Assembly: GCF_947387555.1 (NCBI RefSeq)
Contig: NZ_CANDNZ010000003.1
Coordinates: forward strand, 124,001-188,000
Length of the DNA stretch: 64,000 bases
From: Thalassomonas sp. RHCl1
Lineage (GTDB): Bacteria; Pseudomonadota; Gammaproteobacteria; Enterobacterales; Alteromonadaceae
Direction of reading: 5' to 3'
This document shows positions 29,256 through 47,970 of the stretch, piece after piece. The notes beneath the pieces were generated by a model, which was given only the letters and a program-made list of their open reading frames with translations, was not told where the DNA came from and ran no database searches. Both the position numbers and the translations under genes were made by a program. Numbering within the stretch: position 1 is the stretch's first letter; every line of letters starts with the position of its first letter.

Positions 29256-30737
29256 ATGTTATTTTCTCTTAGCGATATCCAGGTAAAATTACAACAAAAA
29301 AACTGGCGCGGACAGATTAACTTTTATCCGTCAGGCCGGACCTTAACCTATGAGTCGATGACCGAGCACCAAAACTATCTGGAGCAAAATCTCCAGTTTG
29401 CTTTTGGTGATAAGATCATTGTTGTGACCACGCCAACACCAGAAACCGTCTCTACGCTGTTATGGCTGTGGCACAAAGGTGCGGTCGTGGTGCCGGTAAA
29501 ACATGATATGGAAGCGGATGCGATTGCAAAAATTGCCGACGATTGCCATGCCCATGCCATGATCAAAGATCACATCATCACCGAACTTGAGCCCTCGCCG
29601 CAGCCCCAGTTGCTGTTTCGGGAAAAAAGCGCCCGTCAGGTATGCGGCACCGACCTGGCACTGTTGATTTATACTTCCGGCAGTACCGGCAAGCCCAAGG
29701 GCATCATGCTCAGCCACAGCAATGTCATCACCGCGATGAATTCTATTGCCACTTACCTGAAAATTGACGGCGACGAACATATTCTTGGCCTTTCTCCGCT
29801 CTCTTTTGATTATGGCCTTTACCAGTTACTGTTCAGCCTGGCGTTTGACTGCCAGTTCACCCTGTTTGAAGAAAATTTTCACCCGATCAAGGTGCTCAAG
29901 GCCCTCGACGAACAGCAAATTACCCTGCTGCCGGTTGTGCCTGCCATGGCCATCTCGCTGGCGAAAATTATCCGGGCATTAAAGCGCCAGTTGCCGCATT
30001 TGCGTAAGTTAACCAATACCGGCGGCCACTTGGGTGAAACCGTGATTGATGATCTGATCAGCCTGGTGCCGCAGCTGGACGTTTATGCCATGTATGGTTT
30101 AACCGAGTGCAAACGCGCCCTGTACCTGCCGCCGGAACAAACCCGCAACAAACGTGGCTCAGTCGGTATCGCCATCCCGGGTCTGGAAGCCAAGTTATTT
30201 AACAATGTCCAGTGTGAAACCGGCCCCCATTACCAGGAGGTCGCCACCGGCGAAGTCGGTGAATTATTTGTCCGCGGCGCCACTGTCATGCAGGGCTATT
30301 ACGGCCAGGCCAATGCCGGGGCAAATTTGATTTCGGGTAATTACCGTGACGATAACTGGCTCGCCACCGGCGATCTCTTCTGCCAGGACCAAGACGGTTA
30401 TTTCTACTTTAAGGGCCGCACCAAGGAGCTGATCAAACAAGCCGGTTTCTGTATTTACCCTACCGAAAGCGAGGCGCTGATAGAGAAATGTCATTTGGTG
30501 CATCTGGCAGCCATTATCCAGTCGGAAGACAAGTTCGGCGATGAAATTGCCTGCTTGTGTGTGCAATTACACGACAACAGTAAAGAAGATCAGGACGCGT
30601 TTAAAACCTGGCTCAAAGCCAATACCGATGCCGACTACCGCCCGCGTGAAGTGCGTTTTATCGAACAAATGCAACTGACCGCCAATTCCAAGGTCGACAA
30701 AAAGTCCCTGGTCGCCAAGTTAGAACCGGAGAAGTAA
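29256..30737 (+). CDS. Stand-alone adenylation enzyme (amino acid or acyl:ACP ligase)
   Basis: 493 residues from the ATG at 29256, selected by AAGGAAAG eight bases upstream. All adenylation motifs are visible: YTSGSTGKPKG (139-149), YGLTE (280-284), TGDL (371-374) and a C-terminal SKVDKKS with the catalytic lysine. The A4 region reads PLSFDYGLYQ (FD at 184-185); in amino-acid-activating domains the Asp of this FD holds the substrate amino group, so an amino acid substrate is plausible. The nearest style of protein I know is the AMP-forming ligase associated with exosortase A clusters, with proline adenylases such as PltF as more distant analogues. It probably loads the carrier protein encoded at 39827. 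Confidence 0.82.
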   Translation: MLFSLSDIQVKLQQKNWRGQINFYPSGRTLTYESMTEHQNYLEQNLQFAFGDKIIVVTTPTPETVSTLLWLWHKGAVVVPVKHDMEADAIAKIADDCHAHAMIKDHIITELEPSPQPQLLFREKSARQVCGTDLALLIYTSGSTGKPKGIMLSHSNVITAMNSIATYLKIDGDEHILGLSPLSFDYGLYQLLFSLAFDCQFTLFEENFHPIKVLKALDEQQITLLPVVPAMAISLAKIIRALKRQLPHLRKLTNTGGHLGETVIDDLISLVPQLDVYAMYGLTECKRALYLPPEQTRNKRGSVGIAIPGLEAKLFNNVQCETGPHYQEVATGEVGELFVRGATVMQGYYGQANAGANLISGNYRDDNWLATGDLFCQDQDGYFYFKGRTKELIKQAGFCIYPTESEALIEKCHLVHLAAIIQSEDKFGDEIACLCVQLHDNSKEDQDAFKTWLKANTDADYRPREVRFIEQMQLTANSKVDKKSLVAKLEPEK

Positions 30738-30738
30738 A

Positions 30739-31878
30739 GTGGAACAGATCAAAAGCATGCTGGAACAGAACCCGGCAGAGATTTCTACACCCTGTTATTT
30801 TTACAGCGTCAGCCAATTGCAGCAAAATTTTCAGACATTAAAGGCGGCGCTGGGCACGCAAGTGATCCTTTCGGTCAAAGCCAACAGCAATACCGATCTG
30901 CTGATCCGTGCCAGCCACTTCCTTACCGACGGTGTTGAAGTAGCCTCCATCAAGGAGCTGCAAAATATCGTTGGCGGCGACCGTGCCCGCTACGTCAATA
31001 ACCCCTCTGCCGATAAAACCTTTTTACGGGCGGCGGTATCCGGCAAAGCCCGGGTGATCGTCGACAGCCTGGCCCAGCTTGAAATCGTCGCCGAGCTCGC
31101 GAAAAAACGCCCGCCGGCAGGCATTATCCTGCGCCTGAACCCTGTGGTATTAAAACAGTTTAACGATGCCCACCCGAAAGTTCGCCCGGATCAATTCGGC
31201 ATGGACTGGGACAGTGCCTGTATTGCCATCGACATCTGTAAAGCAAACAACTTGCCGCTGATGGGATTCCATTTATTTAAAGGCTCCTACAGTTTTGAAA
31301 AAAGCGCCATGGCCACCGTGGACTCGGCTAAGGGCATTATCGCACAAATGGAAAGCCGCTTCGGCCAGCCGTTATCCTTTGCCAACCTCGGCGGCGGTTT
31401 TGGCGAGCAATGGCAGCAAAGCCAATTCGACTTTGCCGCCTACCGCAAAAAGCTGGCAGAGTTGCCGCAGCACATCACGCTGGCGCACGAGTCCGGGCGT
31501 GGCCTGATGGCCAGCATAGGTCACTTTGCCGTGCGGGTGCGTTATGTCAAACAAATTGAAAATCAATACTACGCCATTTGCGACGGCGGTATTGCACAAA
31601 ACTTCCTGTTGGCAAAAACGGAAAATACCCTGCGTAAACTGAAAACCCCGGCCTTATGGCAGTCTCAGGGCGGACAGGAAAATGAGCAAAAAGCCGCCTG
31701 TAGCTTTGTCGGCAGTTCCTGCAGCAAAGACGATGTCATAGGTAAACAGTCCGACGAGTATATTTTGCCTCAGCCGGGGGATATCTGCATTTTCGATCAC
31801 TGCGGCGCCTATAACGCCAGCTATACGGTAGCGCCGTTTTTGCAGCTGCCCCAAGCCACAACTTATATTGTCGAATAG
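30739..31878 (+). CDS. Fold-III PLP-dependent amino acid decarboxylase
   Basis: 379 residues starting at a GTG one base after the ligase stop, with GGAGAAG upstream. It has the alanine racemase/DAP-ornithine decarboxylase architecture: Schiff-base lysine K47 in SVKANS, GGGFG (218-222) for the phosphate, ESGR (251-254), the catalytic cysteine C328 in GSSCSKDD, and GAYNASY near 356-362. This group removes the carboxylate of basic amino acids or diaminopimelate. A ligase plus PLP-decarboxylase pair of this sort is a recurring companion of exosortase A loci, where its chemistry is unresolved. Here it may make an amine precursor or act on a carrier-linked amino acid. Confidence 0.85.
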   Translation: MEQIKSMLEQNPAEISTPCYFYSVSQLQQNFQTLKAALGTQVILSVKANSNTDLLIRASHFLTDGVEVASIKELQNIVGGDRARYVNNPSADKTFLRAAVSGKARVIVDSLAQLEIVAELAKKRPPAGIILRLNPVVLKQFNDAHPKVRPDQFGMDWDSACIAIDICKANNLPLMGFHLFKGSYSFEKSAMATVDSAKGIIAQMESRFGQPLSFANLGGGFGEQWQQSQFDFAAYRKKLAELPQHITLAHESGRGLMASIGHFAVRVRYVKQIENQYYAICDGGIAQNFLLAKTENTLRKLKTPALWQSQGGQENEQKAACSFVGSSCSKDDVIGKQSDEYILPQPGDICIFDHCGAYNASYTVAPFLQLPQATTYIVE

Positions 31879-32961
31879 GTGACCCCCTTGTCTAATAACG
31901 TATCTAATAATAAAAACAATCAAGTACATGATATTTTTGGCCGCTGCATCACCTCCCATTTAGAACAAAGCGGCGCTTTGCCGCCAAAACTTGAGGTCCT
32001 GGTCAACAATGCCGTGATCACCCTGATGGGCAGCGACATGATCATCGAGGACAACTTCACTCCGATGGCTAAGTTGCAGCAGCCGCGCATTTCACAGCCG
32101 CTGGAAAGTTTTGCCCAGACCGAATTCATTGATGAGCTGACCGACAAAGTCAAACATCAAGGTTTCGGTGCGCATTTTCATCAGATTATCGGGCTTTTCG
32201 GCTCTATTATGCTGGGCTTATGCGCCACCGAGGCCCAGCAAGCATTAGTAAACGAATGGCTGGAGCAGGGACATTTCGGCAACTTTTTGATGACAGACGG
32301 CGGCGGCCCGACACTGGCCTACTGGAATACCACTTTGACCCCGCTAGATGACGGCAACTTTACCTTAAATGTCGATAAAAAATGGGGCATCGAAGGACAA
32401 AACGTTGGTTTCGGCATGGTGGTATGCCAACAAAAAGGCAAACCGTTCCCGGTAACGGTATTGTTGTCCCCGGAAAAATCACAAGCATTGCAGCAACAAG
32501 TCTGCGGCGGCACTTTCCTTGACGGCAGACTGCAACTGGGCAATGTCAAAGGCCAGGTGCAGGTCAGCAAAGATGATTTTCTCGCCAAAGGCGGTCTCGG
32601 CAGCGTCAACCGCTTTTTAACTTTAGTGCGTCCGCGTTTTGTTAAATCGCTGATGCATCATCTGTTATGGCTGCAGCAACAAGACCGCCTGATGCTGGAG
32701 CAGGACGATCTCAGCGCCATCGACTTTATTATCAATATGGCCAACTGGTGCTCCGCCAAAGATACTTTCTCCATCCATTCGGTGGACCAGGTACTGGCGC
32801 TGAAATTCACCAGCAATGAGTTGTTGCTCTCCCTGGTACGCAAAGGGGCTCTCAAGCACCTTAGCGATCAAAGGGATCTGCTCGGCTTCACTAAAATGGA
32901 AGGCAGTTCATACCGCTGTCTGTTTGAAGTTTACAGCAAATTTAAACGGGGCCGGGTATGA
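31879..32961 (+). CDS. Divergent acyl-CoA dehydrogenase-like flavoprotein
   Basis: 360 residues from a GTG directly after the preceding stop; there is no good Shine-Dalgarno and later starts are possible. The fold is suggested by an N-terminal helical region, GHFGNFLMTDGGGP in place of the FAD-contacting MTEP motif, the strand KKWGIEG, and a C-terminal helical bundle. The normal catalytic glutamate region is not recognisable. Family members oxidise acyl thioesters; carrier-linked homologues turn prolyl-ACP into pyrrolyl-ACP. Being next to an adenylation enzyme and ACP, oxidation of a carrier-bound acyl group is the likely role, but the substrate is unknown and the protein could be catalytically altered. 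Confidence 0.6.
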   Translation: MTPLSNNVSNNKNNQVHDIFGRCITSHLEQSGALPPKLEVLVNNAVITLMGSDMIIEDNFTPMAKLQQPRISQPLESFAQTEFIDELTDKVKHQGFGAHFHQIIGLFGSIMLGLCATEAQQALVNEWLEQGHFGNFLMTDGGGPTLAYWNTTLTPLDDGNFTLNVDKKWGIEGQNVGFGMVVCQQKGKPFPVTVLLSPEKSQALQQQVCGGTFLDGRLQLGNVKGQVQVSKDDFLAKGGLGSVNRFLTLVRPRFVKSLMHHLLWLQQQDRLMLEQDDLSAIDFIINMANWCSAKDTFSIHSVDQVLALKFTSNELLLSLVRKGALKHLSDQRDLLGFTKMEGSSYRCLFEVYSKFKRGRV

Positions 32962-33872
32962 GCACAGCAGTATCAGAGCAGGTTGTTAGCGAACAGCCCG
33001 GTTTAACGGTAAAAGGCATAGCTTTTACACCACTACCGCAACCGTTATTTAAACAGTTGCCGCCAATTGACGAGGTGATGTCTTTGCTGGTGAAAACCCT
33101 GGGTAAACAGGTTAACGGATTGATCGAACAAACGGGGATCCCGGCGGATGAATTTAGCCGGCATTTCTTATGTTCGACCATGATCGAGATGGCATTCACC
33201 ACCCAATCGGTGAAATGGCCGGACATCGCCGAGCAACTTAAAGCCTACGGCGATCATCAGCCTGATACCTTTGTCAACGCCTATGAATGTGCCTCCTGGG
33301 GTTATTCGCTGCGGCACTACCTGAAGGAAGAAAGTCTTAAGGAAGAGAGGTTTAAGCAAGAAAAACAAAGCCGCTATATGATTGTCAGTATCCTGGATGC
33401 CAATGTCTATAACTTTGATTTTTGGTGTTATAACGATCACTGGGAGCACTCGGGTTTTGGTATTAGTACTGTGATTTTAGAAATCACCGCCCCTTTAACC
33501 GACGAGCTGACCATAGGCTCTGCCGTCACCCACAACAGTGTTGCCGAATTTGCCACTGTAGTGCGCCGTACCATGATGAAAAAGCCCGGCGCCGTAGTCG
33601 CACTGCCGTTTTTCCCGGTAAATGTGCAACAGATGTTTGAAAAATTATTACGCGGCCAGCCTCAGCTGCCGGACTTACATGCCGAACACGGACACTGTTT
33701 CGGCTCAGATCCCTGGTTATCCCTGCTAACCCATGGCCTGAGCAATAAGATTGAACAGCCGGAGCGCTTTATGGCCTGCTCGGTGGCTCTTAACGGTTAT
33801 TATGCCATTGCCGATCTGATGCTGACGCCGGATACCGTTTTCATCAAAAATGAGGAGTGGCAGCATGGTTAA
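32958..33872 (+). CDS. KS III-like (thiolase-fold) protein, divergent
   Basis: 304 residues whose ATG overlaps the previous stop (ATGA). It resembles beta-ketoacyl-ACP synthase III in outline: a presumed nucleophile C111 in YECASWGYSL at the N-terminus of a helix, a strand with HSGFGISTVILEI where FabH has its GDGA motif, and a C-terminal half with a helix-rich thiolase pattern. The canonical FabH His and Asn motifs are not clearly present. A Lys/Glu-rich loop at about 122-138 is unusual. It may start a chain from an unusual acyl thioester or act as an acyltransferase. The assignment rests on pattern reading and is moderate. Confidence 0.5.
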   Translation: MSTAVSEQVVSEQPGLTVKGIAFTPLPQPLFKQLPPIDEVMSLLVKTLGKQVNGLIEQTGIPADEFSRHFLCSTMIEMAFTTQSVKWPDIAEQLKAYGDHQPDTFVNAYECASWGYSLRHYLKEESLKEERFKQEKQSRYMIVSILDANVYNFDFWCYNDHWEHSGFGISTVILEITAPLTDELTIGSAVTHNSVAEFATVVRRTMMKKPGAVVALPFFPVNVQQMFEKLLRGQPQLPDLHAEHGHCFGSDPWLSLLTHGLSNKIEQPERFMACSVALNGYYAIADLMLTPDTVFIKNEEWQHG

Positions 33873-34413
33873 GCAGATTCAAGGTGTAAGCGAAGCGCCA
33901 AATCAGGCCAGGATGAAACAGTTTACCGGCACCCTCACCCGCAGGCCGTTTCCAAATAAACCTTCAATTGCCGAAGCCCAGATGTTGCCGTTAACCAGTG
34001 ACAGCGATTTTGAAGTCTTTACCAGCTTTAACAGCGCAACTTGCCCGGTATTGTTGAATGTGCGCGAGCATTACCAGTTGCTGTCGGATTTAGTGGATGA
34101 GGCCCAGGCACGCTGGCCGGATATTTTTATCCTGATCAGGCTTTCCATGCCCGGGGGGATGCGTATTCCCGCCAAGCTGCTGGCCGACAATGTTTTGTTG
34201 CTCGAAGACATCAGCTTTGAGGAGCAAAAGCTTATCGATATTGCCAAGGCGCTACTGGTGGTCGAAGACAGGTTCAGCCGCGTTGAAATAGACAATAACG
34301 ACAACAGCATTCATTTGCGCCTTTACTTAGGTGAAAAGCTAAGTAAAGAGCCAGCTGATGACGCCCTGCAACCTTTAATTGAATGTTTAGCGCAAAGAGG
34401 AGTCGCCGGCTAA
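33865..34413 (+). CDS. Hypothetical protein of the biosynthetic locus
   Basis: 182 residues from the ATG at 33865, supported by GAGGAG at 33852-33857; it overlaps the KS III-like gene by eight bases. I do not recognise the family. The N-terminal 40 residues are basic, followed by an alpha/beta pattern with several LxLxxD and VLLLEDISF strands; there is no signal peptide or membrane segment. Being translationally wedged between two ketosynthase-like genes with overlaps on both sides, it is probably a partner or structural subunit of that complex rather than an independent enzyme. Confidence 0.6.
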   Translation: MVKQIQGVSEAPNQARMKQFTGTLTRRPFPNKPSIAEAQMLPLTSDSDFEVFTSFNSATCPVLLNVREHYQLLSDLVDEAQARWPDIFILIRLSMPGGMRIPAKLLADNVLLLEDISFEEQKLIDIAKALLVVEDRFSRVEIDNNDNSIHLRLYLGEKLSKEPADDALQPLIECLAQRGVAG

Positions 34414-35423
34414 TGGCTGCCCCTGTGGTCATTTCGCAATATTGGGCCGGAGATGCCACAGATCCCGGTCCGGCTATTGCCGAACTGAAGCAGCGGCTAA
34501 TGGCACTGGATAAATTACCAAGCCATGCCACCTTGATCAGTGCCGGTGAAGTCGGCATATTGCGCGATCCTCAGGTGGCAGAGTTCCACCAATGGTTAAG
34601 CCAGTACTGCCAAGTGACTTTTATCAGCGCCGCCTGTACCAGTATGCATGCCGGTATTTTGGACTTTTATCACAGCACCTTAAACAACACTGTGGTGATC
34701 TCGCTGGAGCTGGACAAAAGATTTCAGCAGGCCTGCCTGAATTCATTGGGCATAGGCAATGAACAAGATCAGGATGGCCTGGATGTCGTGCCCGGGGTGG
34801 GTTTTATCGCGCTAAACCGATTGAAAGATGGTTTGGAAAAAAATGAACAGACAAGACGGCAAGTCGTGGTGGAAAAATGCCAGCTCTTTAGCCAGCAAAG
34901 CGGGATGACAGGTACACAGGCGCTTATCGGCAGATTAGCCCAGCAGCTGCAGGCCCTGCCGCAAGAGATATTACCGGTGTCGTTTGATATTTGCTCTAAC
35001 TGGGGCAGATCCTTATTGATGGGAGTGAATATCCGCCTGGCAAGCAAACGCCAGTCGGTTCAGTGGTTAGACAGCATTGAAACCTGTCAACGCCATTATT
35101 TGAGCCTCAAGCCCTTATTTGAACTGCAGCTGTATAAAGAAAAACTAGTGCAGCACAGTTTAATGTTATTGACCCTGGGGGGCGGCGGCCGGGTCGGCCT
35201 GTTGCAACTGGGCAGTAATAACAATAACAAGGCAGGTGCTGCGATCGAACTGCCACAGGCCAGTTTTGAGCAACATTCACTGGCGGATGATATACGGGGT
35301 TATGAGCGAGCGCTGGATCTGCTCGGGGATAACAAGCTAGCCGGCTACCAGCAGATCAGAGACACGCTGAAATATCCTCACAGCCGCTACCGCGGTATGG
35401 ATAACCATTACTTTAAATGGTAG
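34413..35423 (+). CDS. Ketosynthase-like (thiolase-fold) protein
   Basis: 336 residues from the ATG at 34413, which overlaps the preceding stop (TAATG) and has AAAGAGG nine bases upstream; an in-frame ATG at 34383 has no such support. A ketosynthase nucleophile elbow is visible at C75 in ISAACTSMHAG, and the C-terminal part has a LTLGGGGRVGLLQL strand-turn resembling the closing glycine-rich motif of ketosynthases. The two catalytic histidines cannot be placed with confidence, so it may be a condensing enzyme with altered chemistry or a chain-length-factor-like partner. The gene ends inside a short tandem repeat. Confidence 0.55.
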   Translation: MAAPVVISQYWAGDATDPGPAIAELKQRLMALDKLPSHATLISAGEVGILRDPQVAEFHQWLSQYCQVTFISAACTSMHAGILDFYHSTLNNTVVISLELDKRFQQACLNSLGIGNEQDQDGLDVVPGVGFIALNRLKDGLEKNEQTRRQVVVEKCQLFSQQSGMTGTQALIGRLAQQLQALPQEILPVSFDICSNWGRSLLMGVNIRLASKRQSVQWLDSIETCQRHYLSLKPLFELQLYKEKLVQHSLMLLTLGGGGRVGLLQLGSNNNNKAGAAIELPQASFEQHSLADDIRGYERALDLLGDNKLAGYQQIRDTLKYPHSRYRGMDNHYFKW

Positions 35424-35525: not shown

Positions 35526-37463
35526 ATGATAAACAAGCAAGAAATATTTCAGGAATACGACGTCGTTATCATCGGCGCCGGTTGGGCGGGGCTGGCGTTG
35601 GCGCGCCAGCTAAAAAGAGAAAATGGCGATCTGCGTATCATCCAGCTCGAAGCCGAGACTGAATATAAAGCCAAAATCGGCGAAGCCACGGTAGAAATTA
35701 CCGGCCATTACTTTTTGAAAAAACTGGGACTGGCCAATTATTTATACCGTCACCAGCTGCCTAAAAATGCCCTGCGCTTTTTCTTCGACAATAAGGAACA
35801 CAGCCTGCCGATTGAGCAAATGAGCGAACAAGGCACGGTTTATATTCCGCCCCACCCTGCTTTTCAGCTTGAGCGCGCCACCTTTGAATCCGCCCTGACC
35901 GAGATGAACCGCGAAGACGACATCACCATTTTACAAGGGGCCAGGATGACCGGCTTTGAACTGGACCATGAGGACGGACACACAGTGAACTTCAGGTACC
36001 AGGATCAAGCCCATCAAATCAGCGGTAAATGGCTGGTAGATGCCAGCGGCCGCGCCGGGGTGATCACCAAAAAAATGAAATGCCGCAGCCGGGAAAACAT
36101 CCCCCGCCACAGCTCGGCCTGGGGCCGTTTTCGCGGTGTGAAAGACTTTGACAGTGTCGGCACTAAACCCTGGCGTGACCGGGCATCAAGCCGCTTCCTG
36201 TCCACCAACCATTTTACCGGCCACGGTTACTGGATCTGGTTTATCCCGTTAAAAAGCGGCCTGACCAGCATAGGCATAGTGTGCGATAAAACCAAGGTCG
36301 AAAATCCGCCGTTAAAGCAGGCGGACTTTATTGCCAAGCTGAAAGAGCATGCCGCCATTGCCGACTTGATTGAAGACGCCGAAATAGAAGACTTTGAAGC
36401 CTGGGGCCAGCTGGCGTACCGCGGCAACACAGTTGTCAACCGCGAGCGCTGGGGCGCGACGGGGTTTGCCGCCATGTTCCTCGACCCTTTGCTTAGCGGC
36501 GGCGGTGATGTGATTGCCATGGCCAATGACAATCTCAGCAAAGTGATCTTGGCGGATCTGCAAAACAGCGATAAGGAAGCGGCGCAAACGGCGCTGGACC
36601 AGGCGGTGCCATTTGCCAACGGCGTGCTCAAGTATTATTACCAGTTCCTCTATGCCCAGTTGATGAACCTTTACCCTGTGCTCGATTGTGCCCGGTTGTG
36701 CTCGCCGGTAATGGCGTATATTAATGCCACCTACTTTATTACCAATGCCTGGGACTATATCGAAGGCAATCTTGCAGATCCGCAGCATTTTGAAAAGCAC
36801 TGCTACCTGCGCCGTGGCCACTATGCCCTGGAATTGCTGTTGCAGCGTCAGATCCTGGAAAGCCTGGAAGTGCTGCGCAGCGAAAACCGTGCTTTTGACC
36901 GCAACGATGAAAGCTTTTTTGAAACCGGCGGCGATCTGTACAAATACTACATCTACCAGATGGGACAAAAAGGCCAGGACGGTTACCGCATTGACTTTAG
37001 GGTGAAATTATTCAGCCAGTGTTTCGCCCAGGTCACCGGCGCCAAACTTGGCCTGGCCAACTTTGGCAACCGCCGCATGGTGCAAAGCGCCCTGAACCTG
37101 CCGACAATACTGAAAAACCCGACCTTTGGCCGTGAGCAGTTACCGGCCTTGCTAACTACCATGAGTGAAAATCTCACCCGCGAGTTGCAGCAAAGTACGG
37201 AGCACACGGTTTTGGTGGAGATCACCGAAGCTTCTTTCGAGGATGAAAAGGTCAATGTCACGGTTGCCGGCGATACTGCAGATGCCAAGCAGTTAAAACA
37301 GCTGCAAAGAACCGCCAACAGTATCTGGATGCGCCAGCAGGAATATATCGACCAGGACAGCTATGTGCCTGAATTCCTGCGCTATGCCCGCCAGCAACCG
37401 CAAGATCTGATGGACCCGCGCTACCCTGTGTGTCTTGAAAACACCGAGATGTTGGAAGCTTAA
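35526..37463 (+). CDS. FAD-dependent halogenase-family oxidoreductase with long C-terminal extension
   Basis: 645 residues. It has the flavin-dependent halogenase hallmarks: the dinucleotide fold GAGWAG (17-22), GEAT (52-55), the WxWxIP motif as WIWFIP (236-241), and DPLLSGG (320-326) at the flavin site. WxWxIP is taken as typical of halogenases because it shields the flavin from acting as a monooxygenase, though it does not prove halogenation. About 250-300 residues after the catalytic core match nothing I know; the usual length is 430-550. Substrate halogenation or hydroxylation on the carrier protein is plausible. A flavin reductase is not encoded nearby. AGGGA upstream of the ATG supports the start. 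Confidence 0.8.
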   Translation: MINKQEIFQEYDVVIIGAGWAGLALARQLKRENGDLRIIQLEAETEYKAKIGEATVEITGHYFLKKLGLANYLYRHQLPKNALRFFFDNKEHSLPIEQMSEQGTVYIPPHPAFQLERATFESALTEMNREDDITILQGARMTGFELDHEDGHTVNFRYQDQAHQISGKWLVDASGRAGVITKKMKCRSRENIPRHSSAWGRFRGVKDFDSVGTKPWRDRASSRFLSTNHFTGHGYWIWFIPLKSGLTSIGIVCDKTKVENPPLKQADFIAKLKEHAAIADLIEDAEIEDFEAWGQLAYRGNTVVNRERWGATGFAAMFLDPLLSGGGDVIAMANDNLSKVILADLQNSDKEAAQTALDQAVPFANGVLKYYYQFLYAQLMNLYPVLDCARLCSPVMAYINATYFITNAWDYIEGNLADPQHFEKHCYLRRGHYALELLLQRQILESLEVLRSENRAFDRNDESFFETGGDLYKYYIYQMGQKGQDGYRIDFRVKLFSQCFAQVTGAKLGLANFGNRRMVQSALNLPTILKNPTFGREQLPALLTTMSENLTRELQQSTEHTVLVEITEASFEDEKVNVTVAGDTADAKQLKQLQRTANSIWMRQQEYIDQDSYVPEFLRYARQQPQDLMDPRYPVCLENTEMLEA

Positions 37464-39826: not shown

Positions 39827-40078
39827 ATGGAACTAGGCCAAACCTTACCGGAGTTAAAAGAACAGGTCGCAGAAATGCTTAACATCGAAGCTGCTGATGT
39901 CGATGTTGAAGCGCCCCTGGGGGAACTTGGGGTTGATTCACTCAATATCGTAGAGCTGATCCTGATTGTTGAGCAGCTTTACCCTAATGTCATGGATCCG
40001 GATGCCCTGACATTTGACGAGCACACCACGTTGGCGCAAATGGATGAGCAACTGGTGGAGTCTTCGGTAGAAGTCTGA
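39827..40078 (+). CDS. Acyl carrier protein
   Basis: 83 residues, strongly acidic, with the phosphopantetheine attachment serine S38 in GVDSLNIVEL. GAGGAAATAAAA places the start. The helix I and II sequences (ELKEQVAEMLNIEAADVD) are typical of type II acyl or peptidyl carrier proteins. No phosphopantetheinyl transferase is encoded nearby, so a housekeeping enzyme must activate it. It is the only carrier in the locus and so is the expected partner of the adenylation enzyme, both KS-like proteins, the dehydrogenases and the flavoprotein. Confidence 0.92.
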   Translation: MELGQTLPELKEQVAEMLNIEAADVDVEAPLGELGVDSLNIVELILIVEQLYPNVMDPDALTFDEHTTLAQMDEQLVESSVEV

Positions 40079-40147: not shown

Positions 40148-40180
40148 TTTTACCCTAACACAGCGTATTTGAGTGACGTT

Positions 40181-40903
40181 ATGAAAAAACTGTTGATTTT
40201 ACTTTCGATAAATCTGCTGATCGGCAATGTTGTCGCCTGGTTTATGGGCGCGGCGCCGATTGATTTTGAACCAGTGCCTTATTCTCAACAAGAGCAGGAG
40301 CTGATCACTGAACTCAAATCTGAGCTGGCACAAAGTGGCGATGATATCGCCCTGCAGACCCAGCTTGGCTCCTTGTATTCGCTGCACAATCATCTTGATG
40401 ATGCTGAACCCTTGCTGGCAGCTGCCGCTTCGGGGCAAGATGCTACTGCGCTGGCGTGGCTAAGCGGCACCCGGGCCAAACAGGCGGGGGCCATGTTCGA
40501 CCCCCTGATGGGCTTGCGCAAACTCTACCTTTTGCACTCTGCCTGCAGCGATATGGACCGGGCGGTAGCAATGGAGCCGGAAAATTTTGAAATTCGCATG
40601 GTGCGTCTGGCAACCTATTCGCCCACGGCGGTAATGAATTGCAGCCTGGAAACCGCCTTTAGCGACGAAGCCTGGTTTAAACAATATTTTCAGCGTCAGG
40701 GAGCCATGGCGCCATTGGAGCTGAAACAGCAGTTTTACCTGACCATGAGCATCGCCTACGCCAAAGCCGGCGGCAGCGAAAACCAGCAAGAAGCCAACCG
40801 CTATATGGCGCAATATCAGGAATTATCCGCTGGCCGCGAACAACCGCCGCTGGTATTACAACAATTGGCGGCGGCCAATGAACTGCTGACGGAGGGCTCT
40901 TGA
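40181..40903 (+). CDS. TPR-like membrane-anchored protein of the export module
   Basis: 240 residues from the ATG at 40181 (MKKLLILLSINLL), preferred over an upstream TTG because it gives a standard N-terminal hydrophobic anchor or signal. The rest is helical with TPR-like spacing (LGSLYSLHNHLDDAEPLLAAAA and later helices), without clear catalytic residues. The next gene's ATG overlaps its stop, so it belongs to the transporter operon. TPR proteins often scaffold envelope complexes; a periplasmic adaptor for the Lol-like transporter is a reasonable guess. Confidence 0.6.
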   Translation: MKKLLILLSINLLIGNVVAWFMGAAPIDFEPVPYSQQEQELITELKSELAQSGDDIALQTQLGSLYSLHNHLDDAEPLLAAAASGQDATALAWLSGTRAKQAGAMFDPLMGLRKLYLLHSACSDMDRAVAMEPENFEIRMVRLATYSPTAVMNCSLETAFSDEAWFKQYFQRQGAMAPLELKQQFYLTMSIAYAKAGGSENQQEANRYMAQYQELSAGREQPPLVLQQLAAANELLTEGS

Positions 40904-41631
40904 TGGCAGTCGTTGAACTACAGGCAATATCCCGCTCTTTTGAGCTTGGCAACACACGCGTGACCGCCCTGGACAAGCTGGATCTGACTCTGGAAAAAGG
41001 CGAATTCGTGGTGCTTCGGGGAGTGAGCGGCAGCGGTAAAAGTACCCTGCTTAACCTCATCGGCGCCATGGACGCGCCCGATGCCGGGGAAGTGTTTATT
41101 CACGGCCAGGCATTAAGCTCGCTTTCGGATAAGCAAAAGTCACAATTGCGCAGCCGCTACATAGGTTTTATTTTTCAGGCATTTAACCTGATCCCGGTGT
41201 TAACCGCACTGGAAAACGTACAGTACCCGCTGTCGCTGCAAAAAGTGCCCGATCGCGAAGCCAAAGCTCGCGCTGCCAAGGCACTGGCCCAGGTGGGACT
41301 GGCAGACTTTGTTGATCGCCGCCCCAACCAGCTTTCCGGCGGACAAATGCAGCGGGTGGCCATTGCCCGCGCCCTGGTGACCAATCCGGATATTATTCTG
41401 GCGGACGAACCCACCGCCAACCTGGACTCGGAAACTTCAAAACAAATTATGGACCTGCTCGGCAGTCTGAACCGCGAAACCGGCGTGACCTTTTTATTCG
41501 CCACCCATCACGACTTTGTCTTAAGCCGGGCGTCGAGAGTATTGGAATTAAAAGACGGCCATATCGTCAAAGACGAGCAAGCGCACAACTTAACACTGGT
41601 GGAGAATTCCCCGGGAGAGAAACTTGGCTAA
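40903..41631 (+). CDS. LolD/MacB-type ABC ATPase
   Basis: 242 residues from the ATG at 40903 (TGATG overlap, GGAGGG upstream). Walker A GVSGSGKST (40-48), signature LSGGQMQR, Walker B IILADEPTANLD and the H-loop FATHH are all intact. The FIFQAFNLIPVLTALENV Q-loop region and the short length match the LolD/MacB/FtsE class that works with FtsX-type permeases. Its permease is encoded two genes downstream. Such ATPases drive mechanotransmission, extracting a lipid or lipoprotein from the inner membrane rather than pumping through a channel. Confidence 0.92.
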   Translation: MAVVELQAISRSFELGNTRVTALDKLDLTLEKGEFVVLRGVSGSGKSTLLNLIGAMDAPDAGEVFIHGQALSSLSDKQKSQLRSRYIGFIFQAFNLIPVLTALENVQYPLSLQKVPDREAKARAAKALAQVGLADFVDRRPNQLSGGQMQRVAIARALVTNPDIILADEPTANLDSETSKQIMDLLGSLNRETGVTFLFATHHDFVLSRASRVLELKDGHIVKDEQAHNLTLVENSPGEKLG

Positions 41632-42454
41632 TACTTACCTAATAAAAAATATCGGTTTCTTACTGCTGGCAACCGTCCTTGGCGGCTGTTCGGAACAAGC
41701 AGAGCAGACACCGCAAATAAGCGGAAGCCAAGCGGCTACCGCCACGAAAACAGACAAAACGATCAATACCGGCGAGCAGCTTTCGGCGGACTCAGAGCAG
41801 CCGACACAAGTGCCGACTACCAACGGTGAGCGCCGGGCGTTATTGGAATCTCTCAACATCAATGGCGGCAGCTCTATCGATGATCGCCGCCTGGCGCTGT
41901 TTGTACGCTATACCTATTTTGCCGATAACCCTCAGCGTCAGCTGGAAACGTTAGAGCAGCTGATTACTGAGATCGCCGAAATGCGCCAAACCCGCCCGGA
42001 CGATCATGAACTGACCGCGTTATACGGCAGCGCCATCAGCCTGCAAACGGTATTTTTCCTCGACAATCTCGGCAAAACCAATCTGTTGTCGAAAAAAGGC
42101 AGCCGCTATCTCGATCGCGCAGTAAAAAGTGCCCCCAACCACCTGGGAGTGCGCTTATACCGTGGCATCACCTATGCCGAAATGCCGGCGTTTTTGGGTA
42201 AAGCCCGCCAGGCGGTGGCGGACTTTAAACTGATCAAACATGCCAGCACAGCCTTTCCAAGCAAACAAAGTGCAGACCAGGTTAACGAGCAAGCGAATAA
42301 AAAGTTTGCTGCGATGATCGACTATTACTACGCCATGGCCTTGATTAAAAACCAGCAGCAGGACCGCGGCATCAAACAGCTGATGTCGCTGGTAGGCAAA
42401 AACATAGCCCCCTGGTCAGAGCGGGCGGCAGTGTTAAAACAAGAGCAGGGTTAA
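41624..42454 (+). CDS. Lipoprotein of the export module
   Basis: 276 residues starting at TTG 41624, inside the end of the ATPase gene, with GGGAGAG upstream. The signal peptide ends in a lipobox LGGC at about residues 19-22, so the mature protein is acylated. A Ser/Thr/Gln-rich linker precedes a helical domain (about 70-276) with TPR-like helices. It carries no enzyme motif. Its place between ATPase and permease genes suggests a periplasm-facing or outer-membrane component that works with the transporter. Confidence 0.75.
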   Translation: MANTYLIKNIGFLLLATVLGGCSEQAEQTPQISGSQAATATKTDKTINTGEQLSADSEQPTQVPTTNGERRALLESLNINGGSSIDDRRLALFVRYTYFADNPQRQLETLEQLITEIAEMRQTRPDDHELTALYGSAISLQTVFFLDNLGKTNLLSKKGSRYLDRAVKSAPNHLGVRLYRGITYAEMPAFLGKARQAVADFKLIKHASTAFPSKQSADQVNEQANKKFAAMIDYYYAMALIKNQQQDRGIKQLMSLVGKNIAPWSERAAVLKQEQG

Positions 42455-42458
42455 CGGT

Positions 42459-43685
42459 ATGTTGCGATTAAAACTGGCGTTATTAAACGTACTGCGTAAC
42501 GGCAGGCGCAGCTTTATCACCTTGCTGGCGATCCAGTTTGGTGTTATCAGCCTGATTTTAATGGGCGGCTTTTTTGCCTCCATGTATGAAGGCATGCGTG
42601 AAGGGGTGATCCGCTCGCAGCTTGGCCATATCCAGATTTACCAAAAAGGCTTTAACCAGTTTGGCAACCAGGAGCCGGAAAAATACCTGATAGATGCCGA
42701 AGTGCTGCAACAGGTAACCGGGCAAATTGAAGCCCTTGAACAGGTGGAGCTGGTGACGCCAAGATTAAACCTCACCGGCCTGTTAACCGACGGCAGCAAA
42801 TCGCTGGCGGTTGTGGTTGAAGGCATAGACCCGGAAAAAGAGGCGCTGCTGAGCTCGGCGGTAAAATTAACCGCGGGTGAAGACCTGTTCGAGGAAGACA
42901 TTGACGGCGCCTTAATTGGCGACGGTTTATTTAAATCCCTGAACCTGGAAGTCGGCGCCTCCCTGACCCTGATGGCAACCACGGCTGACGGCAGCTTTGA
43001 TGCCCGCGATATCACCGCCACCGGCGCCATATCCACCGGCACCCGTGAAGTGGATAATCGCTTTATGCGCATTAACCTCAAACATGCCCAGGAGTTGATG
43101 TATACCCAGGGGGTAACCCGTTTGGTGGTGCTGCTTAAAGAAACCCAGGATACCGATGCGGTGATGGCCCAGTTAAATCGGGCCTTTAAAGAGCAAGGGC
43201 TGGCACTGGAGCTGCGCAGCTGGAGCGATTTGGCGGACTATTATCACGAAGTGGTAAACCTGTTTGACGGCATATTCTCTATCGTGCAGCTGATTGTTTT
43301 GGCCATAGTCCTGCTTGGCATCGTTAATACTATGGTGATGGCGGTGATGGAACGTACCCCGGAAATCGGCACCATACGCGCCATCGGCGGCACCCGCGGC
43401 GAAGTGATGAAGCTATTTATCAGCGAAGCCTTTATTTTGGGTCTGATAGGCAGTGTGCTCGGGGTGGTTTTTGCCGTCTTGTTGGCACAAGGCATTACCG
43501 GCGCTGGCATCATGATGCCGACCCCGCCGGGCAGTTCGCAAACCTACCCTATCCGTATTTTTACCGATGCAGATCTGCTGTGGAAAAACGGCCTGTTCGG
43601 TTTGTTGATAGCCGTGATATCCAGCATCTACCCGGCGGTAAAAGCCTCACGCATGGTGATCATCCAGGCCCTGAGATTTGCCTGA
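42459..43685 (+). CDS. FtsX/LolE-type ABC permease
   Basis: 408 residues with the four-helix MacB/LolE topology: one N-terminal transmembrane segment (about 18-42), a large periplasmic domain, and three C-terminal segments. The FtsX core is visible in IVLLGIVNTMVMAVMERTPEIGTIRAIG, where the coupling helix contacts the ATPase. LolCE pairs move lipoproteins from inner to outer membrane, and MacB exports toxins and peptides. Only one permease is present, so a homodimer is expected, as in LolF-like systems. Confidence 0.9.
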   Translation: MLRLKLALLNVLRNGRRSFITLLAIQFGVISLILMGGFFASMYEGMREGVIRSQLGHIQIYQKGFNQFGNQEPEKYLIDAEVLQQVTGQIEALEQVELVTPRLNLTGLLTDGSKSLAVVVEGIDPEKEALLSSAVKLTAGEDLFEEDIDGALIGDGLFKSLNLEVGASLTLMATTADGSFDARDITATGAISTGTREVDNRFMRINLKHAQELMYTQGVTRLVVLLKETQDTDAVMAQLNRAFKEQGLALELRSWSDLADYYHEVVNLFDGIFSIVQLIVLAIVLLGIVNTMVMAVMERTPEIGTIRAIGGTRGEVMKLFISEAFILGLIGSVLGVVFAVLLAQGITGAGIMMPTPPGSSQTYPIRIFTDADLLWKNGLFGLLIAVISSIYPAVKASRMVIIQALRFA

Positions 43686-43702: not shown

Positions 43703-44683
43703 ATGCAAATGAATAAATTAACCATAATTTTGTTGCCGCTTGGGCTGGGTTTTATCAACCCTGCCCTGTGCGCCGAAGCAACCCAGCCAACGGTAGTGAA
43801 TGGACAAATTACCGATGCGGTAGCACAACAGCCAATGGCAGATGACAGTAAAACCACAAAAGCTGAACAACAGGAAGAGCAAAAACCAGCAAAGCAAGCG
43901 CCGGTAAGCAACTTAATTGTAAGCGAAGCAATCACGCCTGCGCCTGAGCAAACTGAGGTTGCTAACACTGATGACCAGCTAAATTCTCAGTTAAGTGCCC
44001 TGCCTGATGCACCCTTACCTGATGCTCAGCAGCTGCTGGAATTTATCGACAGCCTGCGCGGTTATCAGGATCAAAGCTTTACCTTTGACTTATCCAATAT
44101 CAGCTTTAAAGAAAATGAGCAAAAGCACCGCAACAAGCTGGCGGTAAAAGTACTGAGCGATGCCTCCCTCGTGGAATTTACCGCCCCGGCCCGCTCTAAA
44201 GGGCGCAAAATTTTAAAGCAGGCGCAAAACATGTGGATCCGTTTTCCCGGCACCCGCAATGTCTTGCGCATCTCACCGGCCCAGCGTTTGCTCGGGGAAG
44301 CGAGTAACGGCGATGTTACCGGCACCAACTTTTCTGAGGATTATACTGCCAGCTATCAAGGCACTGAAATGCTAAATGACAAGCAGGTGATCAAACTTGA
44401 GCTTAACGCTAAACATGACAAAACCACCTACAAGCAAGTGATGTTTTATCTCGACAGCGAAAACAACTTGCCGCTGCGCAGTGATTTTTATGCCCGCTCC
44501 GGCAAGCTGGCCAAGCAGGCTTATTACACCAAATTCAAAGAGTTTGATGGCGAGCTGAAACTGCACCGCATGAAACTGGTAGACCCGATAGTGGCAGGCA
44601 GCTACACCTGGATGATGTTTGACAACTATCAGAAACAGGATCTCGACAGTGCCATTTTCCACAAAGACGCCCTGACGAGGTAG
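43703..44683 (+). CDS. LolA-like periplasmic lipid-sorting protein
   Basis: About 326 residues (an ATG at 43709, just after TGGAGTAA, is an alternative start). A signal peptide (ending ALCA) leads to a Thr/Gln/Lys-rich spacer to about residue 110, then a domain of about 210 residues with the outer membrane lipoprotein-sorting pattern: FTFDLSNISF, VEFTAPARSKGRKIL, MWIRFPGT, and a long set of amphipathic strands. LolA-type half-barrels carry lipid-modified cargo across the periplasm. With the upstream LolD/LolE-type genes and the downstream barrel, this completes a shuttle route to the outer membrane. Confidence 0.8.
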   Translation: MQMNKLTIILLPLGLGFINPALCAEATQPTVVNGQITDAVAQQPMADDSKTTKAEQQEEQKPAKQAPVSNLIVSEAITPAPEQTEVANTDDQLNSQLSALPDAPLPDAQQLLEFIDSLRGYQDQSFTFDLSNISFKENEQKHRNKLAVKVLSDASLVEFTAPARSKGRKILKQAQNMWIRFPGTRNVLRISPAQRLLGEASNGDVTGTNFSEDYTASYQGTEMLNDKQVIKLELNAKHDKTTYKQVMFYLDSENNLPLRSDFYARSGKLAKQAYYTKFKEFDGELKLHRMKLVDPIVAGSYTWMMFDNYQKQDLDSAIFHKDALTR

Positions 44684-44687
44684 CACC

Positions 44688-46022
44688 ATGACGTTAAAAC
44701 TCTGGCCGCTGCTTGCCCTGTTTTCTAGCCCGGTAACCTTTGGTTTTACCGGGAATAGCCTGGGAGAAGATCCCTTTGCCGATGATCCTTTCGCCGCAGA
44801 TCCCTTTAATAACGATCCCTTTGTTAATGAGCCGGTGGCAGAAAACAGTGTTCACCAAAGCAGGATAGAGCTGAAAAGTTATTATCAGGATAACAAGCTG
44901 CGTAACAGTCATCCTTTCAACCCTGGAGAAGTAAAGTTTGCCGATGGCATTACCCAGGTATCACTGGATGTTGAATTGGAAAGCCAGTGGCAAAGCCAGT
45001 GGAAAACCCGCGCCAGAATCTATCAGCGCTACCTTCAGGAAAACCTGTCGGGCAAAAATCAGGACAGCAGCGACAGCCACCTGCTGGAAGGGCTTGTACA
45101 ATGGCAAAGCGATAACCGTGACCTGGTGATAGAAGCGGGCCGCAGCAAACCTCAGTGGAGTAACGGTTACAGCTATGACATTGCCAACATGCTGCAACCC
45201 CAACGCACCCTGCCCTATATCGATCAGGACAATGCGCTGCAAAGCAAAGGCTGGGATATGATATCCGGTCAGTACTTTTCCGGCCCCTGGTCGTTTGCCA
45301 CTTATTTGGTGGCGAGCGACAGCCGCTATCTCGATGCCGATACCGAAGCGGTATTACGCCTGGGTTATCAGCAAGATGACGCCTTTTCCCTGCTATTACA
45401 CAAGATAGACGGCCAGGACCTGTCATTCGGCGCTACCTACTCCAGCCTGCTGAGCGACGCCATCACTTTTCGGGCCGAATGGACCCGCCACAGCTATCGG
45501 CAAATAGAACCTTTGCAGGTAAATAGCTGGCAAACAAAAGATAAGTCTAACTACCAGCGTTTTGTGGTTGGCTCCACCTATACCGCAGACACAGGATGGT
45601 CGCTGACCGGCGAGTATTTTTACAACGGACACGGCGCCGGTGAAAAGGAATGGCAAAACCTGACCGATGACGCCAAAGCCTCTGCCGAGCGCATCAAGCA
45701 AAACCAGTCGAGCGATCCGGCAACCGACTACAACAATGCCTTTGCCGGCCTGGCATTTATGGGTCAGGGCTGGCTGCGTGAGCGTTATCTTTCTGTGATG
45801 TTTATGTCGGCAGAAAGCGACAACCTGTGGCAATTACGCCTGAGCTCGCAAATAAGCCTGGACGATGACAGCCAGCTGCACCGCTTTGAACTGCTTAAAT
45901 CATTCACCGACAACCTGTCGGCAAGGCTGCAATGGCAAGTCTTTAACGGCTGCGAGCTGTGCGAATACGGCCTCAATCCCAGCAAGAACAATATCCGTTT
46001 GACCGCCAGCTACCTGTTTTAA
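44688..46022 (+). CDS. Outer-membrane beta-barrel protein of the export module
   Basis: 444 residues with a signal peptide (about 1-20) and then four DPF repeats in the span 29-45 (DPFADDPFAADPFNNDPF). The remainder has alternating amphipathic strands rich in Trp, Tyr and Gln and ends in a phenylalanine-terminated strand (LTASYLF), the usual BAM recognition signal. It looks like a porin-like or DUF1302-like barrel that commonly travels with FtsX permeases and LolA-like proteins. It could be the acceptor or outlet for the product. It begins four bases after the LolA-like gene. Confidence 0.75.
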   Translation: MTLKLWPLLALFSSPVTFGFTGNSLGEDPFADDPFAADPFNNDPFVNEPVAENSVHQSRIELKSYYQDNKLRNSHPFNPGEVKFADGITQVSLDVELESQWQSQWKTRARIYQRYLQENLSGKNQDSSDSHLLEGLVQWQSDNRDLVIEAGRSKPQWSNGYSYDIANMLQPQRTLPYIDQDNALQSKGWDMISGQYFSGPWSFATYLVASDSRYLDADTEAVLRLGYQQDDAFSLLLHKIDGQDLSFGATYSSLLSDAITFRAEWTRHSYRQIEPLQVNSWQTKDKSNYQRFVVGSTYTADTGWSLTGEYFYNGHGAGEKEWQNLTDDAKASAERIKQNQSSDPATDYNNAFAGLAFMGQGWLRERYLSVMFMSAESDNLWQLRLSSQISLDDDSQLHRFELLKSFTDNLSARLQWQVFNGCELCEYGLNPSKNNIRLTASYLF

Positions 46023-46083
46023 GCGCTCTGGCGCAATAACTTCAAAATTATAAAAACGATAATAAAAAATCGAGAGGTAAAAG

Positions 46084-47970
46084 ATGGACTTTAACAATAA
46101 CTACCGTGTTGATCTGCGAGACCTCAACTTCCTGTTGTGGGAGCAATTCGACATTGAAAACACTCTGCTTGACCCGTCCATAAATGCCGAATACAGCAAA
46201 GACTTTATCCAGCAGCTGTTATTTCATGCCCGCGACTTTGCCTATAACGAGCTGGGCGCTAACTACCAAAGAGCCGATCGCGAAGGCTGTAAATTACTTG
46301 AAGACGGCACGGTACAATTGCCGTCGAAATACCCGGAAATCTGGCAAAAATACACAGACGCCCAATGGGGCCGGTTAAGCTCGCCGCCGAAATATGATGG
46401 CCTGGGCTCCCCCTATATGGTGGCGCAAATGGTTTACGAAATCTTCCAGGGCGCCGACGCCTCGTTTATGGTGTACCCGGGCTTTTGCAGTCCGGCCATG
46501 CACCTGATCGAAAGATTTGCCACCGAAGACGTAAAACAGCGTTTCAGCCAAAAACTGGCCACCAACGAATGGGCCGCCTGTTTATGCATGACTGAGCCAC
46601 AAGCAGGCAGCGACGTAGGTGCGATAACCACCAAGGCCATCCCGCAAGAGGACGGCAGCTACCATATTGAAGGCGGTAAGATATTCATCTCCGGCGGTAT
46701 GCACGACTTAACCGATAACATCGTCTACATGCTGCTGGCCCGGGTAGAAGGCGCACGCGGCGGCACCACAGGTTTATCCTGTTTTGTCGTGCCCCGTTTT
46801 GAACAGCAAGAAGGCGGCACCCTAACCGACAACCACGTACGCTGCATCCGCCTGGAAGATAAAATGGGTATCCACGGCTGCGCCACCGCCCAACTAAGCT
46901 TTGGTGACAACGGCCCCTGTAAGGCCTATTTACTCGGCGAGCGGGAAAACGTTGGCTTGCGCCAGCTATCTACTATGATGCACATGGCACGGATCTCCAC
47001 CGGCATCTACGCCTTAGGTTTAGCCGGACGCGCCTACATGAACGCCGCCGAATACGCCGCTGAGCGCATACAGGGCACCAGCTTTAAAGAAGCCTTTAAC
47101 CCCAAAGCGGAAAAAGTTTCAATCATGGCTCACGTAGACGTGCGCCGTATGCTGCTGGAAATGAAGTCCAAGGTAGAAGGCTGCCGGGCACTGATCCACA
47201 AACTGACTTTTCATCAAAGCTGGGTAACCAACCTGCAAACACTGCAAGAGATGCACCCTGAAAAAACCGAAGAATATAAGGCACAAAGCAAACACCACGA
47301 ATCCCTGGTAAGCTTGCTGACCCCGATAGTAAAAGCCTACACCTCAGATCAGGCATGGCGGGTAGCAGAGCTAGCTATACAAGTATACGGTGGCCACGGT
47401 TACGTAAAGGATCACCCGGTAGAGCAAGTAGCGCGGGACGTGAAGATACTGTCAATTTGGGAAGGCACTTCATTTATCCAGTCGGCAGATCTGATGAAAG
47501 ACAAGCTGGGTATGGGCCTGACTTCAAAGCTGCTGAGTATTTACCAAGAACAGGTAGAAGCTAGCATAACCCGCAACCGTAATGCCGGTGTTCTACTGGC
47601 AGAAACCGATGCTCTAGAATTGTCACTAGCAAGCTTTATCGAAACCCATGCCCTGATGGGGCGGTGGGTAAAAGAGCGTAAAGTGGAGCTGATATTTTCG
47701 GTATCGACCCGCTTTTTGGAAATGATGGCGGAAGTGACCTTATCATGGTTGCTGCTCGATGGTGCTGTGATAGCATCGAAAAAGCTAGAAAATCTTGAAG
47801 ACCCGCAAGATGAAGTTTTCTACCAAGGTAAGATCGCAAGCGCTCAGTTCTATACCAATAATATATTACCGGGAGTTAAATCTAAGGCTGAAATTATCGC
47901 CAAAGAAGATACTTCAGCACTGGAAGCTACTGAGGGGATTTTCTTACAACGTACCGATTTATATGGTTAA
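46084..47970 (+). CDS. FadE/DmdC-type long acyl-CoA dehydrogenase
   Basis: 628 residues, the length of the large acyl-CoA dehydrogenases. Clear motifs are MTEPQAGSDVG (FAD contact), GGKIFISGG, a substrate-binding segment MGIHGCATAQL, and VYGGHGY followed by ILSIWEGTSFIQ carrying the catalytic glutamate. The extra C-terminal 150-residue domain matches DmdC-type enzymes. CGAGAGG upstream of the ATG marks the start. It has 62 bases between it and the barrel gene and is the last gene of the run. It could desaturate the acyl chain of the product precursor, or be a beta-oxidation enzyme that merely adjoins the locus. Confidence 0.88.
   Translation: MDFNNNYRVDLRDLNFLLWEQFDIENTLLDPSINAEYSKDFIQQLLFHARDFAYNELGANYQRADREGCKLLEDGTVQLPSKYPEIWQKYTDAQWGRLSSPPKYDGLGSPYMVAQMVYEIFQGADASFMVYPGFCSPAMHLIERFATEDVKQRFSQKLATNEWAACLCMTEPQAGSDVGAITTKAIPQEDGSYHIEGGKIFISGGMHDLTDNIVYMLLARVEGARGGTTGLSCFVVPRFEQQEGGTLTDNHVRCIRLEDKMGIHGCATAQLSFGDNGPCKAYLLGERENVGLRQLSTMMHMARISTGIYALGLAGRAYMNAAEYAAERIQGTSFKEAFNPKAEKVSIMAHVDVRRMLLEMKSKVEGCRALIHKLTFHQSWVTNLQTLQEMHPEKTEEYKAQSKHHESLVSLLTPIVKAYTSDQAWRVAELAIQVYGGHGYVKDHPVEQVARDVKILSIWEGTSFIQSADLMKDKLGMGLTSKLLSIYQEQVEASITRNRNAGVLLAETDALELSLASFIETHALMGRWVKERKVELIFSVSTRFLEMMAEVTLSWLLLDGAVIASKKLENLEDPQDEVFYQGKIASAQFYTNNILPGVKSKAEIIAKEDTSALEATEGIFLQRTDLYG

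Follow-up and report, generated by a model that had tools for sequence, protein, structure and literature searches.

What kind of product is made by a compact run of seventeen genes that joins a stand-alone adenylation enzyme and a carrier protein to a Lol-type export set, and does this locus belong to a class of pathway that has already been described? The genes lie on the forward strand of contig NZ_CANDNZ010000003.1 of Thalassomonas sp. RHCl1 (assembly GCF_947387555.1), within a 64,000-nucleotide stretch spanning contig positions 124,001 to 188,000, hereafter the window, to which all coordinates below refer. An initial annotation, made from the sequence alone, had treated them as an unrecognized locus, likened them to pathways that make pyrrolyl starters, and suggested an amino-acid-primed, possibly halogenated or hydroxylated lipid or pigment placed in the outer membrane. 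Our analysis assigns a probability of about 0.72 to a different reading, in which the locus would encode a carrier-based lipopeptide assembly line of the afc type, which makes AFC-BC11 in Burkholderia, in a branch found in marine-type gammaproteobacteria.

The locus itself is a real feature. Seventeen co-directional open reading frames (ORFs), named here A to Q and all on the + strand, occupy positions 29226-47970, with junctions from A to Q of 1, 0, -4, -23, -31, 102, -1, -4, 70, 90, -4, -8, 4, 17, 4 and 61 bp; no intergenic gap exceeds 102 bp and eight junctions overlap or abut exactly, as the initial annotation had described. For gene A, the start at 29256 (MLFSL...) lies closer to the consensus of its relatives than the start of the longest ORF at 29226. 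Family searches of the window proteins against Pfam and NCBIfam back the adenylation enzyme, the pyridoxal phosphate (PLP)-dependent decarboxylase, the halogenase-family flavoprotein, the hydrolase, the acyl carrier protein (ACP), the LolD-like ATPase, the LolCE-like permease, the LolA_like protein and the 628-aa acyl-CoA dehydrogenase. Most of the families first assigned are therefore upheld, while the barrel (P) and the lipoprotein (M) are recognizable by eye only and have no Pfam match.

Substrate loading and the carrier protein

Gene A (29256..30737) encodes a stand-alone adenylation enzyme predicted to be an L-aspartate (L-Asp) ligase acting on the beta-carboxyl. Its best matches in the PDB are 3wvn (146 bits) and 3wv4 (131 bits), which carry non-ribosomal peptide synthetase (NRPS) in their molecule field and which we take to be VinN. 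Residues D195 and R297 are invariant in 19 of 19 sequences, occur in 21 of 21 as well as in the Burkholderia enzyme AfcQ, and align through 3wvn with the residues taken as VinN D230 and R331, which bind L-Asp; R331 is named in the description of AFC-BC11 (PMC12186527). Judged by these matches and residues, A is an enzyme of the VinN/AfcQ type, predicted to act at the side chain of L-Asp, and not of the pyrrolyl type; with its L-Asp-binding Asp and Arg, it does not support the pyrrolyl-starter analogy.

Gene B (30739..31878; PF02784/PF00278) encodes an AfcP-like PLP-dependent decarboxylase whose predicted substrate is Asp-S-carrier. Among solved structures it is closest to 6knh and to BtrK, which decarboxylates an L-glutamyl-carrier, and its residues K47, C328 and D332 are found in 21 of 21 sequences and in AfcP. 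The stand-alone ACP encoded by J (39827..40078; PF00550) is AfcK-like (85 bits, 55% identity), with S38 invariant in 19 of 19 sequences and present in 21 of 21 and in AfcK. It is the only carrier in the cluster, which thus shares the single stand-alone carrier of the afc type.

Homology with the afc locus of Burkholderia

A 2025 description identifies the product of the afc genes of the Burkholderia cepacia complex as AFC-BC11, an antifungal fatty-acyl dehydro-beta-alanine peptide (PMC12186527). According to that description, AfcQ activates L-Asp, by argument at the side chain, and AfcP decarboxylates the residue once it is bound to AfcK, a cycle that repeats; myristate is attached to (beta-Ala)3-AfcK by AfcA; AfcL, modeled as KAS III-like, accepts (beta-Ala)3 in thioester form and couples it to Lys-CoA, forming an amide; AfcE is the proposed maker of the dehydro-beta-alanines; and AfcM is called UDP-glycosyltransferase-type (PMC12186527). 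A second source equates afcE with BCAS0208 and the citrate synthase gene with BCAS0207 (PMC6301696).

The B. cenocepacia region around the match to gene D holds an AMP-binding protein, an ABC ATPase, a permease, a LolA-like protein and a 442-aa frame, then homologues of C, J, D and E and a KAS III-family protein. After these come the homologues of B and A, a frame of 357 aa, the Q homologue and a citrate synthase, an arrangement that fits the afc locus. Ten window genes have afc counterparts, corresponding to AfcQ, AfcP, AfcJ, AfcL, AfcM, AfcK, AfcE and three export genes. Profile scores against the Burkholderia loci run from 700-703 bits for Q with AfcE through 299-303 for B with AfcP, 291 for C with AfcJ, 245-249 for N with the permease, 200-203 for L with the ATPase, 172-197 for A with AfcQ, 162-163 for D with AfcL and 85 for J with AfcK, down to 63-66 for O and 30-33 for E with AfcM. 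The reverse search of Burkholderia proteins against the window recovered nine of the ten counterparts, all but E/AfcM. At E 1e-6, 13 of 108 long Burkholderia frames match the window, twelve of them on cluster genes or on the opposite strand of one, the exception being the upstream ABC ATPase at 24531-25121.

Two acyl-CoA dehydrogenases are among these counterparts. Gene Q (46084..47970; PF00441/PF12806), 44% identical to AfcE over 600 residues, is a predicted desaturase of beta-alanyl to dehydro-beta-alanine, and its catalytic-type glutamate E460 is found in 19 of 19 sequences and in AfcE. The AfcJ-like protein C (31879..32961) is a divergent member of the family: four of its 20 sequences match Acyl-CoA_dh_M (PF02770), with a best E of 7.2e-5. 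Its KMEGSS motif includes E341, which is invariant in 20 of 20 and occurs in 21 of 21 as well as in AfcJ. The putative KAS III-like acyltransferase D (32958..33872) has no relevant Pfam match and is placed solely through its homologue AfcL, with which it shares C111, H246, D251 and N279, invariant in 21 of 21 sequences, D251 being a candidate catalytic Asp. Alignment of D and F with KAS III sequences by hhalign gave no match; since F has a thiolase fold by model and yet also fails, this result says nothing about D. The AfcM-like protein E (33850..34413) matches AfcM with an hhalign probability of 94.9 (E 4.5e-8), its single-sequence match being weak (E 0.023). Of the two thiolase-fold proteins initially proposed, F is upheld by structure prediction; D is placed only by way of AfcL.

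On this homology the locus is a variant of the afc kind and not an unrecognized class, a claim that we limit to the shared core: a VinN-type L-Asp ligase, a carrier-acting PLP decarboxylase, a single carrier, AfcE, AfcJ, AfcL, AfcM and the LolD/LolC/LolA-like genes. The window differs from afc in its extra genes G, H, I, K and M, in F, which has no detectable afc match, and in its altered gene order. The earlier statement that no characterized pathway has this gene set gives way as far as the core is concerned, which is homologous to afc (PMC12186527), and holds in that the match is distant; likewise, the suggested search for a close match to a described cluster of known product returned a distant one. 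The comparison extends afc peptide assembly, which operates without condensation domains, to gammaproteobacteria that are only remotely related to Burkholderia, the new elements being a conserved member of the halogenase family and an acylation logic unlike that of afc. The division between afc genes shared here (AfcQ, P, K, J, L, M, E and the Lol-like exporter) and those unmatched offers hints for AfcJ and AfcM.

Several observations weigh against this assignment. The afc names were given to the Burkholderia locus from its gene order and the descriptions in PMC12186527 and PMC6301696, the record being unannotated there. The ten matched pairs are 23-55% identical, so specificity may have shifted, and the E/AfcM and O matches are weak. 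Profiles and hhalign found no significant afc match for F, G, H, I, K, M and P. The fatty-acyl-AMP ligase AfcA has only a 44-bit partial match in the window, to A itself, and the citrate synthase AfcS (MMFA tail) has none at E 1e-3; the acyl part must therefore differ or be added otherwise. In afc itself, moreover, AfcJ and AfcM have no settled role and that of AfcE is a proposal (PMC12186527).

Conservation and distribution of the cluster

A profile of gene C, used in a pattern-limited scan of 84,980 species genomes that yields a lower bound, detected at least 19 loci. They comprise two in Colwellia, one in Algicola, three in Alteromonadaceae genomes, one each in Pseudoalteromonas denitrificans and another Pseudoalteromonas, two in Marinomonas, two in Pleionea and four in Microbulbifer, with the remainder in Bermanella, Saccharospirillaceae and gammaproteobacterial metagenome-assembled genomes. 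Because the carriers include named species, among them Microbulbifer variabilis and P. denitrificans, the product can be sought directly.

With one genome of the window's genus added to the 19 loci, the full set of seventeen genes is found in 18 of 20 relatives, far beyond chance. In the other two, N-Q (L017) and M-P (L024) fall outside the stretches examined and no other gene is missing; in L013 the seventeen genes are spread over two contigs, with the break inside G. These counts combine tblastn searches using the window proteins with profiles built from the same loci, and tblastn with the window proteins alone recovers the same genes. Within the stretches examined, gene order in the 19 loci is collinear except for G and Q: in the window-type order G directly follows F and Q is last, whereas G-Q precedes A in Pleionea and Q-G follows F in Microbulbifer, Bermanella and Saccharospirillaceae. 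The genes therefore stay together across strains, and the proposed combination of amino-acid-primed, carrier-bound synthesis with a dedicated Lol-type export set recurs in other bacteria as a single conserved unit.

The cluster is rare. Among 295 genomes of the order three carry F, and among 369 of the class a single one carries D; C was detected in two of the 398 genomes sampled from the phylum and in three of the four from the genus, each of these samples containing the window's own genome. Since one genus genome (G662) has no match for C, the cluster seems to have been gained or lost within the genus; the best match there to the flanking gene at 20575-24273 is only 27% identical, so that no empty site can be read. 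Mobile carriage was also considered: the viral_contigs set contained no relative of C and phage records no match of D, and the 27 plasmid records matching G, all below 60% identity and none over more than 80% of its length, do not amount to a copy of this cluster. Queried with the D protein, the 72,556 plasmid records gave two matches, from Burkholderia cenocepacia and B. arboris, both being the Burkholderia afc locus. Among the open-access papers listed, judged by title or the opening of the abstract, we found none describing this cluster or afc in marine bacteria.

Further biosynthetic genes

Gene F (34383..35423) encodes the second thiolase-fold, ketosynthase-like protein, assigned by structure prediction; it has no significant sequence match to AfcO/AfcR or the other ketosynthase-like afc proteins. 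Gene G (35526..37463; PF04820) encodes a flavoprotein of the carrier-dependent halogenase family, with PltA (7e-25) as its closest PDB match, followed by CmlS (7.7e-21). It resembles these flavin halogenases in profile match, WxWxIP motif and Lys, and in having G the window is unlike afc. K80, WxWxIP, D320 and S324 are kept in 20 of 20 sequences; we take K80 to be the active-site Lys, and the motif with this Lys to be the flavin-halogenase signature, so halogenation is still a possible activity of G.

The alpha/beta hydrolase H (37463..38452; PF12146/PF00561) is a candidate releasing thioesterase with a Ser/Asp/His triad (S113, D254, H286) in 20 of 20 sequences, and it may release the product from the carrier. 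The asparagine-synthetase/amidotransferase-like protein I (38449..39756) keeps the likeness first noted in a degenerate form: GATase_7 matches 9 of 19 sequences, with E up to 1, the SGGxDS motif occurs in 0 of 20, and in none of 19 does a Cys follow the predicted start Met. Absence of the SGGxDS motif speaks against a catalytic asparagine synthetase, and I, which is 17-60% identical to its relatives, is probably not catalytic.

Export genes

Genes L (40900..41631), N (42459..43685; PF02687, PF12704) and O (43703..44683; PF17131, 2.4e-39) encode a LolD-like ABC ATPase, a LolC/E-like permease and a LolA-like periplasmic carrier. L reaches 233 bits with TIGR02211 (LolD, cut-off 308) and N 125 bits with TIGR02212 (LolC/E, cut-off 362), and these sub-cut-off scores exclude the housekeeping LolCDE system, leaving L and N as Lol-like only. 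Beside them lie K (40169..40903), a conserved protein (alignment of 13) with a hydrophobic N-terminus by eye, M (41624..42454), a predicted lipoprotein by its lipobox, neither of which has a Pfam or afc match, and P (44688..46022), a predicted outer-membrane barrel protein present in 14 of 14 cluster genomes searched, a count that leaves aside L017, L024 and three others. P has no significant match to the afc protein beside the LolA-like gene (hhalign probability 3.6, E 0.012). L, N and O are related to genes of the Lol and afc systems and stand next to K, M and P, which argues for export to the outer membrane, where the product might plausibly be placed. In afc itself, the outer-membrane protein AfcI is dispensable for AFC-BC11 production (PMC12186527). 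An attempt to link weak Microbulbifer homologues of P to another exporter led only to a LytS/LytTR neighborhood.

Predicted pathway and alternative readings

Gene content, homology, conserved residues and synteny are the observations from which we predict the substrate, step order, number of beta-alanines, chain length, N-acylation, halogenation, and the product and its location. A would activate L-Asp through the side-chain carboxyl and load J, and B would strip the alpha-carboxyl to give beta-alanyl-J, a cycle that may repeat. The amine would receive a fatty acyl group; because the cluster has no fatty-acyl-AMP ligase, the likeliest catalyst would be a KAS III-like protein, D or F, in line with the proposal for bolagladin. 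Q, alone or together with C, would desaturate N-acyl-beta-alanyl-J to dehydro-beta-alanine, an enamide whose electron-rich alpha-carbon would suit G, which might then halogenate or oxidize it, oxygenation being possible. D, H or both would take the chain off J, and K-P would carry the lipid product as far as the outer membrane or through it. The bol genes of Burkholderia gladioli, known here by published description only, likewise place beta-Ala on a carrier and use a dehydrogenase to give dehydro-beta-alanine; a KAS III homologue is proposed to N-acylate beta-alanyl-carrier and deletion of BolQ leaves beta-Ala where dehydro-beta-alanine would be, the system differing in its four-module NRPS and citrate-derived fatty acid (PMC7756342). 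A more specific form of the proposal, in which marine bacteria would make photosensitive halogenated N-acyl-oligo(dehydro-beta-alanine) lipids, with G halogenating the alpha-carbon of the Q-made enamide, KAS III-like N-acylation and Lol-type outer-membrane placement, is tentative and rather unlikely to be correct as a whole. Nothing was found in favor of the pigment initially suggested.

A halogenated pyrrolyl-type starter, as in pyoluteorin or bmp, would require A to load proline, C to oxidize it to pyrrolyl on J and G to halogenate it. Adenylation enzyme, dehydrogenase, carrier and halogenase make up that gene set, and PltA, the closest PDB relative of G, is the pyrrolyl-carrier halogenase of pyoluteorin. 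A, however, is of the VinN type and has the Arg responsible for binding the alpha-carboxylate of L-Asp. Afc counterparts exist for B, D, E and Q, proteins of types that have no known place in pyrrole routes; C corresponds to AfcJ, and Q scores only 70 bits against a prolyl-carrier dehydrogenase model with a cut-off of 650. With A being VinN/AfcQ-like we reject this reading as the principal one and regard it as very improbable.

That D and F instead extend a beta-alanyl starter in polyketide fashion, so that an amino-polyketide or macrolactam results in place of a lipopeptide, we consider improbable. F does have a ketosynthase-like fold, and VinN/VinO/VinL likewise load and decarboxylate an Asp-type residue on a stand-alone carrier and feed polyketide synthesis in vicenistatin (PMC11284099). 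Vicenistatin, however, continues on a polyketide synthase, genes for which are not among the seventeen, where family searches found no acyltransferase, ketoreductase or dehydratase family; D is moreover like AfcL, which forms an amide according to PMC12186527, and Q is a strong match to AfcE. It is also improbable that the genes modify an envelope polymer or lipid with (dehydro-)beta-alanyl groups, as the exosortase-A-associated ligase/decarboxylase pair perhaps does, with the Lol-type part moving the modified lipid. Among NCBIfam models A and B do score highest with the exosortase-A models TIGR03098 and TIGR03099, yet their 270 and 127 bits lie far under the curated cut-offs of 592 and 478, and AFC-BC11 is a free small molecule. 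Family searches of the seventeen genes found no glycosyltransferase family, a point weakened by the UDP-glycosyltransferase-type label given to AfcM in PMC12186527. The afc-type assembly line is thus the reading that we retain.

Additional observations

Exosortase-A-associated ligases at five TIGR03098 loci (L064, L068, L070, L071 and L073) carry MYGLTEAFR, with the same Arg, and the FD motif of AfcQ; these are five of twelve loci fetched, the other seven having been read in a probably wrong frame. The exosortase-A-associated ligase/decarboxylase pair may also produce a beta-alanyl-carrier.

The cluster has a G+C content of 0.513, the whole window one of 0.476; by 4-kb steps it is 0.49-0.53 across the cluster and 0.39-0.42 just downstream (48001-60000). 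A terminator-like hairpin with a T run lies at 40084-40146 (+), between the carrier gene J and the export gene K, with a minimum free energy of -34.6 kcal/mol (z -4.9); it is not general among the relatives, in 10 of 18 of which J and K are spaced by only 10-28 bp.

Upstream of A, a GDSL lipase-like gene (27888-28733) occupies the same place in L010-L013 and in the genus genome G661, and was not seen upstream of A in the other loci, L015 covering only 481 bp there. It is preceded at 25424-27772 by a LytS-type histidine kinase and a LytTR response regulator, a pair kept in G661 and absent from the examined upstream stretches of L010-L013, those of the remaining loci not having been searched for it. 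Farther upstream, 20575-25205 on the - strand encodes an ABC ATPase together with a protein of 1232 aa in which ABC-2 and M1-peptidase-like parts are recognized. Outside the window, the same genome holds a large NRPS region (G000:C3:563299-607325) with frames of 2252-5731 aa that have adenylation-domain matches.

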